Of a stretch of 64,000 bases of DNA, positions 39,019 to 51,685 are shown in pieces. Each line of letters starts with the position of its first letter. The stretch's first letter is position 1. The stretch is from Gammaproteobacteria bacterium (lineage in GTDB: Bacteria > Pseudomonadota > Gammaproteobacteria > Steroidobacterales > Steroidobacteraceae), in assembly GCA_003134045.1 (NCBI GenBank), contig PLAH01000184.1:1-64000 (forward strand). The letters are read 5' to 3'. The position numbers were made by a program, and so were the translations under genes. The notes beneath the pieces were generated by a model. The model did no database searches, was not told the origin of the DNA, and saw nothing but the letters and a program-made list of their open reading frames with translations.

Positions 39019-40299
39019 CTATAACGGTATCTCCGGCGGGGCTGCGGTACGCGACGTGACCGTGCGCCCGCCGTAGGTGTCGGACAGCGCGCGCTCGGCG
39101 GCGATGAACGACTCGAAGGTGGGGCCCAGCACCGTGGCCTCGAGTGCCCGCGCTTGGGCGTCCAGGCGCCGGATCGCCGCGAGCGCTTCGCTCGAACCCA
39201 ACTTGGCACGATCGACGGCCCGCTTCAGTACTCGAATGGTTTCATCGAAAACCTCGATGGGCACGGGAAACGGCTGGCCGTCCTTGCCGCCGTGCGCCAG
39301 CGAGAACCGCGCGGGATCCGAGAATCTCGAGGGCGCGCCATGCACCACTTCCGCGACGAACGCGAGCGCCGCCACGGTTCGCGCCCCGACGCCGGGCGTC
39401 AGCAATAAATCCGCAAAGTCCGTGAGGCCCGCGTCGGCCGCAGCCGCCAGCGTGCCGTGCAGCCTTCTGAGCATCACGTCCGACGCGAGCACCTCATGGC
39501 GGTCCGGCAGCTGCAGATGCGGCAGCGGGCACGGCGCAGGTGCACAGACGGGTTCGATTTCCGGAAACAACGGCAGCGATGCGGCGGCGTTTCCCGAACC
39601 GTAGCGGCGCAGCACGGCAATCGTCCGAGCAGGACCGCCGCGCGCAAGCTCGAGGCCCGCCGCGCGGCTCCGTTCGGCGCGCACATCCGCCAGGTTCACG
39701 ATGGCGCCCACATTGCGTCCCTCGATGGCGGCATGCGGGGATTCGAAGAAGCCCGGCAGATTCTCGGACTGCCAGTGGTAGCGGCGCGCTTCGCGCCGCG
39801 TCTCGTTCATCCCCTGCTGGACCACGCACCAGTGGCCGTCGACCGTCGCGAAGAACGCGTGCAGATAGAGGTCATAACCGTCCTGCACGGCGGCGCTGTC
39901 GATTTTCGCGACCAGACGGCTCGCGCGCACCAGTGAGCCGGCATCCACGCCGGTCCGGTCGCCAACCTCGAGCAGTTCGTCGGGCGTACGCCGCGAATGC
40001 GCACCCTTGCCGCCGCACACGTAGATACCGAGCTCGTTTCGGATCGGAGCAAGGCCTCGCTTGAGCGCGCCGACGACACTGGTGGTGATGCCCGACGAGT
40101 GCCAGTCCATGCCCATGACGGCGCCGAACGCTTGGAACCAAAACGGATGGGCCAAGCGCCGCAGAAACTCATCGCGGCCGTACTCGTGAACGATGGCTTC
40201 GGCGATCACCCGCCCGAGCGCCGCCATGCGCGTCGACAGCCAACGGGGTACGTGTCCCCCATGGAGGGGCAGATTGGCGCTGCCGGTGCGTTGGTGCAT
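39019..40299 (-). CDS. DUF763 family protein
   Basis: 426 residues. RTGSANLPLHGGHVPRWLSTRM at the N-terminus, WFQAFGAVMGMDWHSSGITTSV and YVCGGKGAHSRRTPDELLEVG match DUF763, a family of unknown function best known from archaea and scattered bacteria. DLLLTPGVGARTVAALAFVAEV (about residues 305-330) looks like a helix-hairpin-helix DNA-binding element. It begins 10 bases after the relaxase stop on the same strand. The link to DNA handling is an inference from the hairpin and the neighbour. Confidence 0.85.
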   Translation of the reverse strand: MHQRTGSANLPLHGGHVPRWLSTRMAALGRVIAEAIVHEYGRDEFLRRLAHPFWFQAFGAVMGMDWHSSGITTSVVGALKRGLAPIRNELGIYVCGGKGAHSRRTPDELLEVGDRTGVDAGSLVRASRLVAKIDSAAVQDGYDLYLHAFFATVDGHWCVVQQGMNETRREARRYHWQSENLPGFFESPHAAIEGRNVGAIVNLADVRAERSRAAGLELARGGPARTIAVLRRYGSGNAAASLPLFPEIEPVCAPAPCPLPHLQLPDRHEVLASDVMLRRLHGTLAAAADAGLTDFADLLLTPGVGARTVAALAFVAEVVHGAPSRFSDPARFSLAHGGKDGQPFPVPIEVFDETIRVLKRAVDRAKLGSSEALAAIRRLDAQARALEATVLGPTFESFIAAERALSDTYGGRTVTSRTAAPPEIPL

Positions 40300-40308
40300 G
40301 CGAAAGGA

Positions 40309-41706
40309 TTACACCACAGGCAGCCCGATCCCGCGCAACACGTCCTGAAACGGCGAGTCGAGATTCATCGCCTGCAGCTGCTGCAAATCGCCGATGAGAA
40401 CGATCTTGGCACGCGCTTTATCGGCGACGGCCACGATTCGTTCGAGCGGCTTCAGAGAAATCATTTCCGCACCGTCCACCACGAGAACGCTGGCTCGCGT
40501 CGGCGGGTCGCGCCCTTGCTGCCACCCGTCCCGCGTCACGCCGTAAACCCGCAACCCATCCCGCTCCCAGGCCTCGCGCGCCGCCGTCAGCAGCGACACC
40601 CTGCCGGCATTCGCGGCGAGCGCCAGCGCCTTCGCATCGCCCTCGCCCAGCAGGTAATCGAATGCCCGCCGCTGTTCATCCTCGAAACCAAATTGCGACA
40701 GGACACCGGCGTGGGCGTGAGATGAAATGCCATGACCCTGCCGGCTCGCCATCGATGCCGCGCGTTGCCGGAGCGATTTCGCGGCCTCCAGCATGTCGCG
40801 GGAAGTGAAACGATTCTCGCCGGCGCGACCGGACTGTAAAGCGACGAGCTCGTCGGATTGGGTCACCGCGAGCAACGCGGCGTCGAATTGCGCCGCCCCA
40901 TCGGTGCGTGGCCGCAAGAATCGCGCGATGTCGTCGTGCGTGAAGGTTGGCGACCGATGCGCGAGAGCCCGCAGCACCACGCTGGGATCTTCGAGGATGG
41001 CCGCGCCATTCTCCCGTACGATCCTTTGCTGCTCGGTAATGCGGTCGGCGAGGTGGTCCGGCAAGTTCGCGTCGCCGTCCCGCGGCCGCCCGAGCCCGAC
41101 ACGGCGTGCCGGCGTGAGTTCGATTTGTTGCGCCTCGAGCGTCCGATGGTCGATTCTGATGGCATGTCCCGCCCGCGCCAAATGTTCGTTGGCCCGCTCG
41201 GCCCATGCCGCGCGCCACTCCAGCAAATTGGCCTTGCCGTTCCAATGCCGCGCCTTGGGCCCAAAACCCAGGGGCCCCACCTCGCGCAAGGTGAGTAACA
41301 GATGCGCAAGCGGATTCTCGGGGTTATCGCGGCGGATACTAAAATCGGCGACCATGCCCTTCGAGACGAATGTTCTCGCGATGTAATCCCGCACCAGGAC
41401 CAGACACTGGTCGGCGGACAACTCCACCGGCAGCCCCACCTCGATGGCCCGCGCCAGCTGCGAATCCTTGCGCAGCTCGGCCGATTCCACCCGGTTCCAC
41501 AGCGCTTCGCGGTCCCGCACCCAGTCCGGAGCGCCCGCCGGCGCCATGATTTCCGCATGCGCACCGCCACGCTTGGCGGTGTAGTCGTGCGTGGACCCGT
41601 AGCGATCGTCGCGCAGCCGGGTGCCGGAGCGGTAGGCCGCCGCGGCAACGATGCTCTGGCCGCGGCCCCGCGAGATGACGTTTGCGTTCAGATGGTAGAT
41701 CGCCAA
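40309..41706 (-). CDS. Degenerate MobA/MobL (TraA-type) relaxase with remnant helicase domain
   Basis: 465 residues from a TTG at 41706, which has a GGGGAGG ribosome site; the track start at 42003 runs through the divergent gene. N-terminal MOBQ domain: AIYHLNANVISRGRGQS and the tyrosine region VAAAAYRSGTRLRDD are present, but the metal-binding HxH reads NPLAHLLLTLRE, with Leu for the first His. C-terminal TraA helicase part: the Walker A position reads AANAGRVSLL (no GKS/T), about 30 residues after it are missing, Walker B is VLVVDGAEM (Glu lost) and the chain stops after GDLQQLQAM. Nicking and unwinding are therefore doubtful, although the frame is intact. Confidence 0.88.
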   Translation of the reverse strand: MAIYHLNANVISRGRGQSIVAAAAYRSGTRLRDDRYGSTHDYTAKRGGAHAEIMAPAGAPDWVRDREALWNRVESAELRKDSQLARAIEVGLPVELSADQCLVLVRDYIARTFVSKGMVADFSIRRDNPENPLAHLLLTLREVGPLGFGPKARHWNGKANLLEWRAAWAERANEHLARAGHAIRIDHRTLEAQQIELTPARRVGLGRPRDGDANLPDHLADRITEQQRIVRENGAAILEDPSVVLRALAHRSPTFTHDDIARFLRPRTDGAAQFDAALLAVTQSDELVALQSGRAGENRFTSRDMLEAAKSLRQRAASMASRQGHGISSHAHAGVLSQFGFEDEQRRAFDYLLGEGDAKALALAANAGRVSLLTAAREAWERDGLRVYGVTRDGWQQGRDPPTRASVLVVDGAEMISLKPLERIVAVADKARAKIVLIGDLQQLQAMNLDSPFQDVLRGIGLPVV

Positions 41707-41787
41707 GACTTTTCCTCCCCTGAAGTACCCGGTAGGATACCTAAAATTCCACTGCCTCATGGATGAACGTATAAGTGCAGGCTCCCC
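41707..41787. other. Candidate oriT-like region with MOBQ nic-like sequence
   Basis: 81-base gap between the divergent relaxase and TraD-like genes, the same place as oriT in Ti-type tra regions. It holds ATAAGTGCAGGCT (41771-41783), sharing the TAAGTGC core of MOBQ nic sites (TAAGTGCGCCCT), next to short inverted repeats GGTA-GGA-TACC and TCAT-GG-ATGA. The bases after the core differ from consensus, so activity is uncertain. Confidence 0.4.
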
Positions 41788-42165
41788 ATGCCCAAGCTCG
41801 ATGATCAGATCTCGACTCTGCAGCAGCGGCTGCAGCAGCTGAAACTCCGCCAGCAGCGCAGCGATGCACGCAAACGCGCCATCGCCGCCACGCGTGATCG
41901 CAAGGCGGACACACGGCGCAAGATTTTGCTGGGCGGCCTGGTGCTGGAGAAGATCCGGCAAGGCGAGATGAATAAAGACCAAGTGTCGGCGTGGCTGGAT
42001 CACGCGCTCGCGCGCGCCGCCGACCGCGCCCTGTTCGCTCTGCCGGCACGGCCATCCGCCGCGGGATCGGCCGCAGCGGAATCAGCCGTGGCGGAGGCAG
42101 CCTCGGCGGAGCCACCCTCTGCGGAACCGTCCGCCGCGGGATCAGCGACTGCCGAGTCCGCCTAG
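41788..42165 (+). CDS. TraD-like conjugal-transfer accessory protein
   Basis: 125 residues: an N-terminal coiled coil (ISTLQQRLQQLKLRQQRSDARKRAI), the segment KADTRRKILLGGLVLEKI typical of the small Ti-type TraD proteins, and a 45-residue Ala/Ser/Glu/Pro tail built from degenerate repeats of a GCGGAATCAGC-like unit. TraD proteins of this type accompany TraA relaxases at oriT. It is divergent from the relaxase gene and has no further tra gene downstream. Confidence 0.75.
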   Translation: MPKLDDQISTLQQRLQQLKLRQQRSDARKRAIAATRDRKADTRRKILLGGLVLEKIRQGEMNKDQVSAWLDHALARAADRALFALPARPSAAGSAAAESAVAEAASAEPPSAEPSAAGSATAESA

Positions 42166-48692: not shown

Positions 48693-49625
48693 ATGATGGC
48701 CAAAGCACTGGCAAAGCCGCCGCGGACCTTTCAGGATTTGATTTTCGCCCTGCAGAAATACTGGTCGGAGCAGGGCTGCATCATCTTGCAGCCATACGAC
48801 ATGGAAATGGGAGCGGGTACGTTCCATACCGCGACTTTTTTGCGCGCCGTGGGCCCTGAGCCCTGGAGCGCCGCCTACGTACAGCCGTCGCGGCGCCCCA
48901 CCGACGGGCGCTACGGCAACAATCCGTTCCGGCTGCAGCACTACTACCAGTTCCAGGTGTGCATCAAACCCTCGCCCGACGACTTTCAGGAGCTGTACTT
49001 GGGCTCGCTGCGATCCTTGGGGTTCGATCTGCTGACGCATGACATTCGTTTCGTCGAGGACAATTGGGAATCGCCCACCTTGGGCGCCTGGGGGCTTGGC
49101 TGGGAGGTATGGCTGAACGGCATGGAAGTGTCGCAATTCACGTATTTTCAGCAGGTCGGGGGGTTGGATTGCCGGCCGGTGATGGGCGAAATCACCTATG
49201 GCCTGGAGCGGCTCGGCATGTATATCCAGGGTAAGGAGAGCATTTTCGACATCGTGTGGACCGACGGTCCGTTCGGCACCATCACCTACGGCGACGTGTT
49301 TCACCAGAACGAGGTGGAACAGTCCATCTACAACTTCGAGAAAGCCGATATTCAGGTGCTGCTCGCGCAATTCGACATATACGAGTCTGCATGCCAGCGT
49401 CTGCTCGCCGACAAGCTGGTGCTGCCGGCCTACGAACAGATGGTCAAGGCCTCGCACTCCTTCAATCTGCTCGACGCCCGGCATGCGGTCTCCGTCACCG
49501 AACGCCAGCGCTTCATATTGCGGGTGCGAACCCTGGCCCGCGGCGTGGCCGAGGCTTATCGCGAGAGCCGTGAGGCGCTCGGCTTTCCCTTGATCAAGGA
49601 CGCCGCCGCGCAGCGGGTCGCCTGA
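48693..49625 (+). CDS. glyQ: Glycyl-tRNA synthetase alpha subunit
   Basis: Catalytic subunit of the tetrameric bacterial glycyl-tRNA synthetase. 310 residues from the ATG at 48693 (an adjacent ATG at 48696 is equally possible); the track start at 48543 lies across the promoter region. [34 protein letters not shown] and the motif-2-like [16 protein letters not shown] are diagnostic. The stop overlaps the glyS ATG. Confidence 0.97.
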
Positions 49626-51685
49626 TGGCCGCACGCGACTTGCTGTTCGAGCTGGGCACCGAGGAATTGCCGCCGCGCACCTTGCTGGCGTTGTCGGTGG
49701 CGCTGCGCGATGGCGTACTCGAGGGCCTTGACGGCGCCGGCATACCCCACGGCCAAGCCCACAGCTACGCGACGCCGCGCCGTCTCGCCGTGCGCGTCGA
49801 CGCCTGCGCCGAGTCCGCTCCCGAGCGGCGGATCGAACGCCGCGGGCCTCCCGTCAGCAGTTCTTTCGATGCTGCCGGTGCGCCGACGCAGGCGGCGACG
49901 GCGTTTGCCAGGAGCTGCGGCGTTCAGGTCGAAGATCTGGAGCGTTTGACCACGGACAAGGGCGCGTGGTTGGCCTTTCGCGGCACCGAACCCGGGGCCG
50001 CTACGGCAGGCCTGCTCGGCGGCATCGTGAATCAGGCTGTCGCGGGATTGCCCATTGCCAAGCGCATGCGTTGGGGCGCACGCAGGGTGGAATTCGTGCG
50101 GCCCGTGCGCACCGTGGTGCTGCTGTTCGGCGATGACGTGGTTCCCATCGAGGTACTGGGTCTGCGGTCCGACCGGATGACGCTGGGCCATCGGTTCCAC
50201 GCCCCGCGTCCCATTTCGCTGAAGTCTCCCAAGACCTATGAAAGGCAGCTGCGTAGCGCCAAAGTGATAGCCGATTTCGGCAAACGCCGAGCGGTGATTC
50301 GCGAGGGTGTCATGGCGGCGGCGGCGGCGGCGGGAGGCACGGCATTGATCGAGGACGCGTTGCTCGACGAGGTCACGGCCTTGGTCGAATGGCCGGTCCC
50401 CATTGCCGGTCGGTTCGAGCAGCGTTTTCTGGCGCTGCCGCGCGAGGTGGTGATCGCCACGGTGCAGGACCATCAACGCTATTTCGCGGTGCAGGGAGCG
50501 GATGGTCGCTTGACCGGCGACTTCATCACGGTCAGCAACATCCGGAGCCGAGACCCGGTGAAAGTGCGCGAAGGCAACGAGCGCGTGGTCCGGCCGCGAC
50601 TCGCGGACGCGGCTTTTTTCTGGGACCAGGACCGCGCGATATCGCTCGATGCGCATGCGGCGAAGCTCGCCGGCGTGACCTTTCAGGCCAAGCTGGGCAG
50701 CTATGCGGACAAGACGCTGCGGGTCAAATGGCTGGCCGAATTCATCGGCGAACGTATAAGTGCGCCGGCCATGGTTGGTAGAGCCGCGGAGCTCGCCAAG
50801 GCGGATCTCATGACGGCCATGGTGGGCGAATTTCCCGAGCTGCAGGGGACCATGGGTCGCTACTATGCCGAGGCGCAGGGCGAGCCGGCCGAGTTGGCGC
50901 TGGCGCTCGAGGAACATTACCGGCCCCGGTTCGCAGGCGACGGGCTGCCGACGACCAAAACCGGCCAAGCGCTGGCGCTGGCCGACAAGCTCGACACGCT
51001 GGCTGGCATCTTCGCCATCGAGCAGAGGCCGACCGGAACCAAGGATCCGTTCGGCCTGCGCCGCGCCGCGCTCGGCGTTCTGCGCATTCTGCTCGAGTGC
51101 CACCTCGATCTGGATCTGCACCAGCTGCTGCGGGAGGCCGCAACCCTGCAGCCCATACGGCGCGCCGGCGTGGCCGACGAGGTCTACGATTTCATTGCCG
51201 AGCGGCTGCGCGGCGTGCTGCTGGAGCGCGCCGGCACCTCGGCCGAAATGATCGATGCGGTGCTGGCCGGCAGGCCGCACTCGCCCTTGGACGCGGAAGC
51301 CCGGCTGCAGGCGCTCGAGGACTTCCTGCGGCTGCCCGACGCCGGCGTGTTGACGGCCATCAACAAGCGCATCGTCAATATCCTGCGCAAGGCTCCGCCG
51401 GGTACCGACCTCGCCGTGCTGGAAGGACTGACGGAAGAAGCCGAGCGCGGATTGCATCGCACGCTCGGCGGTTTGAGCGGCGGCGTGAAGCAGGCCATCG
51501 CCGAGCGTCGTTACGCGGACGCTTTGCGGTCGCTGACGGGCCTGCGCGCGCCAGTCGACGAGTTCTTCGAGCGCGTCATGGTGATGGATGAGGATCTCGG
51601 ACGGCGCAACAACCGGCTCGCGCTGCTGCGCGAGGTTCGGGAACTGCTTGGCGGCGTGGCGGACTTGTCGCGCCTCCCGGGCTGA
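49625..51685 (+). CDS. glyS: Glycyl-tRNA synthetase beta subunit
   Basis: 686-residue tRNA-recognition subunit. LLFELGTEELPPRTL at the start, KRMRWGARRVEFVRPVR, LPREVVIATVQDHQRYFAVQ and the HD-like region with FGLRRAALGVLRIL are typical, with a C-terminal anticodon-binding-like domain. Partner of GlyQ; ATGA overlap ensures balanced synthesis. The long antisense ORF on the minus strand here is a shadow. Confidence 0.97.
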   Translation: MAARDLLFELGTEELPPRTLLALSVALRDGVLEGLDGAGIPHGQAHSYATPRRLAVRVDACAESAPERRIERRGPPVSSSFDAAGAPTQAATAFARSCGVQVEDLERLTTDKGAWLAFRGTEPGAATAGLLGGIVNQAVAGLPIAKRMRWGARRVEFVRPVRTVVLLFGDDVVPIEVLGLRSDRMTLGHRFHAPRPISLKSPKTYERQLRSAKVIADFGKRRAVIREGVMAAAAAAGGTALIEDALLDEVTALVEWPVPIAGRFEQRFLALPREVVIATVQDHQRYFAVQGADGRLTGDFITVSNIRSRDPVKVREGNERVVRPRLADAAFFWDQDRAISLDAHAAKLAGVTFQAKLGSYADKTLRVKWLAEFIGERISAPAMVGRAAELAKADLMTAMVGEFPELQGTMGRYYAEAQGEPAELALALEEHYRPRFAGDGLPTTKTGQALALADKLDTLAGIFAIEQRPTGTKDPFGLRRAALGVLRILLECHLDLDLHQLLREAATLQPIRRAGVADEVYDFIAERLRGVLLERAGTSAEMIDAVLAGRPHSPLDAEARLQALEDFLRLPDAGVLTAINKRIVNILRKAPPGTDLAVLEGLTEEAERGLHRTLGGLSGGVKQAIAERRYADALRSLTGLRAPVDEFFERVMVMDEDLGRRNNRLALLREVRELLGGVADLSRLPG

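Follow-up and report, generated by a model that had tools for sequence, protein, structure and literature searches.

The presence of a relaxase gene is commonly taken as a sign of a mobile element. Full-length Ti-type TraA proteins of the MOBQ class (TIGR02768; examples in Sphingobium, Aquicella and the genomes G020 and G063) are 865–1100 aa long, lie on plasmid or plasmid-like contigs, and contain intact E87, H125, H133 and H135 residues, the GKS/T and DEAG motifs and a complete helicase half. The MOBQ catalytic set consists of Y25, E87, E89, H125, H133 and H135 (PMC6856555). The nick region of RSF1010 is TAAGTGCG/CCCT (PMC4814116), and the published MOBQ oriT consensus is NcgtNtaAgtGCGCcCT (PMC10333310). 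Autoregulation by intact relaxases is known; TraA of pIP501, TrsA of pUC11B and MobM of pMV158 bind DNA at their own promoter region (PMC10873654). These autoregulating relaxases still serve transferable plasmids, whereas the protein described below could retain binding alone. No described case of a chromosomal, selected, non-nicking domesticated relaxase was found in the open-access literature.

The window, which is the whole stretch of 64,000 nucleotides analysed here, contains a traA-like gene at 40309–41706. The initial annotation had given these coordinates correctly, and the gene runs from 41706 down to 40309, on the minus strand. It consists of 465 codons with no internal stop, and GGGGAGG precedes the TTG start at 41706–41704, in agreement with the uninterrupted frame and the ribosome site described earlier; the plus-strand frame across the same interval is interrupted by stops. 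Profile searches revealed matches of the protein to MobA_MobL (PF03389, E 1e-62) and to the MobQ profile NF041496 (242 bits against a cut-off of 200), while TraA_Ti (TIGR02768) matched residues 1–390 with 378 bits, below its cut-off of 590. The protein is homologous to Ti-type TraA over its 465 residues, with 41–43% identity to plasmid TraA and 50–61% to relatives in the family, and it is composed of a MOBQ relaxase domain (residues 1–205), a linker and a helicase-lobe remnant (residues ~340–465). The nearest solved structures by sequence match to the N-domain were the NES relaxase of S. aureus plasmids (4HT4, E 3e-33) and MobA of R1162/RSF1010 (2NS6, E 8e-7). As in Ti-type TraA loci, a divergent TraD-like partner is present (41788–42165, plus strand; 125 aa; weak PF06412) with an oriT core between the two genes; unlike those loci, the window gene is chromosomal, truncated and catalytically disarmed, and little more than this core, without the hairpin arm, is left of the oriT region. 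The gene derives from a relaxase-helicase, TraA of the Ti type (MOBQ), and has been stripped of its cutting and helicase parts. Because the defining catalytic features of a relaxase were tested and not found, the protein was assigned as a descendant of MOBQ TraA and not as a relaxase.

The residue numbering of the window protein coincides with that of the MOBQ catalytic set of PMC6856555, and the corresponding positions are occupied by Y25, A87, E89, R125, L133 and H135. Three of the six catalytic residues are therefore missing, including two of the three metal-binding histidines. By alignment to that residue set, the codon of the catalytic tyrosine is kept at 41632–41634 (minus strand, as are all codons below) within AAYRSG, the tyrosine region recognised in the initial annotation. 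The NPLAH sequence reported there in place of NPHAH is confirmed by the CTT codon at 41308–41310, where the metal-binding His133 has become Leu (L/S/Y/Y/H across the five carriers of the gene), and the alignment shows that metal-binding His135 is kept at 41302–41304. Two further catalytic losses had been overlooked: Glu87 to Ala at 41446–41448 (Ala or Leu throughout the five carriers, Glu in 10 of 10 intact TraA aligned) and the metal-binding His125 to Arg at 41332–41334 (Arg in 5/5 carriers). Among 42 other MobA/MobL relatives, H133 and H135 are kept in every protein and H125 aligns in 38; reading of the remaining four sequences revealed that the histidine is present and shifted by alignment gaps. 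A substitute residue pair for HxH, which had been raised as a possible refutation, is unsupported by the alignments. NES and MobA resemble the window protein in N-domain sequence and predicted fold, but their E87, H125 and H133 have no equivalents in it. The helicase losses proposed earlier were likewise borne out by alignment with intact TraA. The former Walker A (residues 361–370, 40597–40626, minus strand) is without GKS/T and reads AANAGRVSL where intact TraA has GVAGAGKST, followed by a gap at which intact TraA has about 22–30 residues. The former Walker B (40465–40476, minus strand) has changed from DEAG to DGAE with loss of its Glu, and the C-terminal helicase half is missing.

An AlphaFold2 model of the window protein was built from 12 sequences and had a mean pLDDT of 81. 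The HUH fold of the N-domain was found in this model; the modelled relaxase domain superposed on the NES relaxase 4HT4 with a TM-score of 0.90 by target (rmsd 1.6 Å) and the N-domain on MobA 2NS6 with a TM-score of 0.73 by target, while the C-terminal part resembled a partial RecD2-like lobe. The HUH DNA-binding scaffold therefore appears intact, while the nicking chemistry is gone.

Orthologs were searched in 23 genomes of the genus, all of them drafts, with an estimated contamination of 6–7% for the window genome (G000) and for G018. Four further orthologs with open frames were identified, in G018 (62% identity), G021, G008 and G007, and the key losses are common to them. E87 and H125 are gone in all five carriers, as are the Walker A GKS/T, the Walker B DE and the full helicase; (D/A)G(A/V)E stands in place of DEAG, and the helicase domain ends at about the same place in all five. 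Y25 is present in the window protein and three orthologs and is replaced by His in G007. Thirteen positions (R15, Q194, K310, S311, Y351, L353, A360, G412, E414, K419, K430, R432 and M447) are invariant in the five carriers and different in intact TraA. In one of the 23 genomes, G020, the copy is intact, reads NPHAH and is cut short by the contig end, and two full-length TraA proteins (868 and 865 aa) were found in the wider family. Since the contigs of the G020 and G063 copies bear ParA-like genes, intact TraA is probably plasmid-borne there. In a tree of the N-terminal part, the five truncated proteins grouped together (100/99) on a long stem beside the intact G020 TraA, and the alternative grouping of G020 with four truncated proteins, leaving G007 outside, was rejected (AU p 0.0009).

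The initial annotation had left open whether the gene was decaying or retained as a non-enzymatic DNA-binding protein, and had proposed a dN/dS comparison. A codon model run on the five carrier sequences gave an omega of 0.107 (2dlnL 830 against omega = 1), indicating purifying selection across the orthologs. By part, omega was 0.081 for the relaxase, 0.093 for the middle, 0.127 for the helicase remnant and 0.184 for the last 65 codons; the TraD-like gene gave 0.110. Terminal-branch omegas ranged from 0.087 to 0.118 with neutrality rejected for each, and the window's own branch had an omega of 0.118 (2dlnL 20). With dS near or above 1 on most branches, the absolute omega values are rough and their direction is not in doubt. 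Under neutrality about 31 stops would be expected on the window branch, and none was seen. A dead plasmid remnant that has stayed free of stops by chance would account for the loss of several activities, the shrunken oriT region and the missing C-terminal half. It does not fit the low omega of the gene and of the window branch, the five open frames in a single clade, or the shared derived invariant residues of the helicase remnant, and broken orthologs among close relatives were not found. A pseudogene under neutral codon evolution was rejected, every terminal branch being significantly below 1. The codon-model results for the gene, the terminal branches and the expected stops therefore rule out decay, leaving it extremely improbable, and of the two alternatives retention is the one that stands.

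Examination of the neighbourhoods revealed that the G000 and G018 copies occupy one site between trmL and gpsA, within the conserved run glyQ-glnA-ntrB-ntrC-mscS-trmL ... gpsA-secB-grxC, whereas the G021 and G008 copies are flanked by argR, which belongs to the arginine operon, and by a gene for a luciferase-like monooxygenase, and the G007 copy has a third context. Four of the five copies are thus located at two chromosomal sites, each common to sister species, as G000 with G018 (100/99) and G021 with G008 (94/91) come out as sisters in a species tree built from five genes. G013, G014 and G017, the nearest relatives of the latter pair, are without a traA-like gene. Many relatives have gpsA and trmL side by side, tens of bp apart, and elsewhere the two are parted by unrelated sequence; at the argR site of such relatives another gene follows argR and there is no traA/traD pair. 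Where the gpsA–trmL interval was read in close relatives for a broken ortholog, it was empty, with no matching traA-like remnant. The flanks at both chromosomal sites examined consist of core genes (glnA-ntrBC, trmL and gpsA-secB; the arg operon), and no linked replication, integration or T4SS genes were found there. For a single degenerate ancestor to have given rise to copies at two or three sites, the gene must have relocated or been transferred laterally, a point against the reading favoured below. The divergent TraD-like gene is the constant element of the linkage, being present in 5/5 carriers.

On the downstream side, a DUF763 gene (window 39019–40299) follows the traA-like gene after 9 bp in the same orientation. 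It is missing in the sister G018, in which a nucleotidyltransferase-HEPN pair of the MNT/HEPN type (L060:11161–12194) occupies its place directly downstream of the traA-like gene. Near its C-terminus the G018 HEPN protein contains SLEDIRRQARENWLRLR, the tail motif of the 320-aa MobA/MobL proteins of the genus, which is possibly a shared T4SS signal. Orphan TraD-like genes were also observed at L151:8750 (G018:C20) and L152:7667 (G014:C163), with no TraA or 12-mer (described below) beside them.

In the plasmid forms, 160–240 bp separate the TraD-like and TraA genes, and this region contains GCGC(A/G)CTTATACGTCG or a near variant, in most cases with an inverted repeat after it. The reverse complement of this core, CGACGTATAAGTGCGC, matches the RSF1010 nick region and the published consensus. 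The intergenic region of the degenerate copies is only 57–132 bp long (81 bp in the window), and a single invariant block, CACTTATACRTT, is all that can be aligned among the five. This block is a 12-mer, invariant apart from one R, and equals the plasmid oriT core; in the window it is CACTTATACGTT (reverse complement AACGTATAAGTG) at 41766–41777 on the minus strand, where it represents what is left of the core of the MOBQ nick region. The degenerate copies have lost the second hairpin arm together with most of the remaining oriT sequence, and the bases at the nick (GCG/C side) are altered in most. The distance from the 12-mer to the start codon is variable for either divergent gene, and the reverse complement of the 12-mer includes TATAAG. 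Continued relaxase activity, in which a rearranged active site nicks this reduced oriT by means of the remaining Y25, E89 and H135, would agree with the presence of Y25 in four of five carriers and with the predicted intact HUH fold. The loss of two metal-binding histidines and the invariant Glu in the window, the lack of Y25 as well in G007, stubs without the second hairpin arm and with a changed nick side in most, and the absence of a compensating HxH pair make it very unlikely.

The motif CACTTATACRTY was fixed from the intergenic regions ahead of the genome scan; at its final position T was relaxed to Y, since C occupies this position in plasmid oriTs. Sequence search over the genus genomes gave 28 occurrences in the five carriers (7, 6, 5, 5 and 5). 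Exclusion of the five intergenic copies and of two that fall within the G021 and G007 traA-like genes themselves left 21 dispersed exact copies, or 18 independent ones after merging those shared by sisters. The 18 non-carriers had one dispersed exact copy in addition to the G020 oriT. One-mismatch words numbered 79 in carriers and 110 in non-carriers, and the enrichment of the exact 12-mer in carriers was significant (Fisher p 6e-7; 5e-6 with merged independent sites). A reversed-sequence control in carriers gave the same answer; the exact 12-mer was enriched about tenfold over both one-mismatch words and the reversed control, in carriers only. The enrichment was little changed without G007, which has the most one-mismatch words (p 2e-6), and the closest non-carriers, G013, G014 and G017, have no dispersed 12-mer. 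The dispersed copies are mostly intragenic, in several frames and on both strands. One exact copy in the window is located at 50751–50762 (minus strand) within glyS (49625–51685, plus strand); this copy, CGT ATA AGT GC, is shared by G018 and absent in 8 other aligned genomes. The glyS, mgtC-like and bioC-like copies are common to sister genomes. Sharing of dispersed sites by sisters lies slightly above the baseline of 10.7% for AT-rich 12-mers, and their conservation may thus be taken as suggestive only. Origin-proximal clustering of the sites was considered and was unsupported; three of the seven G000 sites lie on contig C113, and no such cluster is seen in G018. The sole non-carrier 12-mer besides the G020 oriT, G003:C111:17511, lies in a large secreted-type gene in which the carrier G008 also has a copy, at nearly the same place (G008:C9:137371; L160, L156).

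As five related bacteria keep an intact gene and a piece of its old target under strong selection, the locus probably has a DNA-binding role and is not a product of decay. The reading favoured here, held with somewhat better than even confidence, is a domesticated non-nicking relaxase that is kept, along with its TraD-like partner, for sequence-specific binding of DNA. In an ancestor within the genus, a TraA gene of plasmid origin would have settled in the chromosome together with the divergent TraD-like gene and an oriT stub; the nicking chemistry (E87, H125 and often H133) and the helicase (Walker A, Walker B Glu and C-terminal half) would then have been lost, and purifying selection would have maintained the disarmed gene since. 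The HUH domain, aided by the TraD-like protein, most likely recognises CACTTATACRTY and binds without cutting; binding at its own divergent promoter region could provide autoregulation, and the few dispersed chromosomal copies may be bound as well. The DNA-binding part of the initial annotation is in this way supported indirectly, by the predicted HUH fold, the conserved oriT core and the carrier enrichment. The mostly intragenic position of the dispersed sites is unlike a classical regulon. In a more far-reaching version, the relaxase would have become a chromosomal site-specific DNA-binding protein with a few dispersed targets of its own, oriT-derived and mostly intragenic, and would work as a parS/matS-type or nucleoid system instead of a promoter regulator; a specific motif is enriched genome-wide together with the gene of the protein (Fisher p 5e-6), and this more particular proposal is a tentative possibility. 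If domestication is correct, the locus would represent a chromosomal relaxase that is strongly selected although it neither nicks DNA nor has a helicase function, and it would offer a natural case in which DNA recognition is uncoupled from cleavage and the target sequence can be tested; profile-based relaxase counts, as used in mobility typing, can then include non-mobile chromosomal genes.

The main functional rival uses the same biochemistry. A non-nicking protein that occupies the oriT of related MOBQ plasmids, whether incoming or resident, would block relaxosome assembly and act as a chromosomal fertility-inhibition gene, for which dominant-negative competition would be natural in a binding-only relaxase. 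Among intact relatives the closest is a TraA of the same genus that appears to be plasmid-borne, and the 12-mer matches its oriT. The effect, a conjugation block, would be shared with the fertility-inhibition factors PifC and Osa; these are plasmid-encoded and aimed at coupling proteins, whereas the window protein would target oriT (PMC5696584). Such interference leaves unexplained the 12-mer enrichment in the carriers' own chromosomes, and a matching intact TraA occurs in only 1 of 23 genomes, so the selective pressure is unproven. The search for membership in known defence systems gave weak hits only, such as DpdH (E 1e-8) over nothing but the relaxase region, and the proposal is doubtful. 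Retention for another reason, such as protein-protein contacts, with the 12-mer serving as a promoter -10 element (TATAAG) and its dispersed copies being coincidence, would be in line with TATAAG in the reverse complement, the varying distance to the start codons and the mostly coding location of the dispersed copies. The roughly tenfold carrier-only enrichment of the exact 12-mer over both controls, with none in G013, G014 and G017, argues against coincidence and renders this unlikely.

Another MobA/MobL protein, commonly about 310–350 aa long and with an intact Y25 and His triad, is encoded in most genomes of the genus (L007–L027). In two genomes (L013, L020), SPFMTGATSLQT, which looks like a TrbC/VirB2-like pilin start, runs in frame into a MobA/MobL protein at different points, as either a fusion or an assembly artefact.
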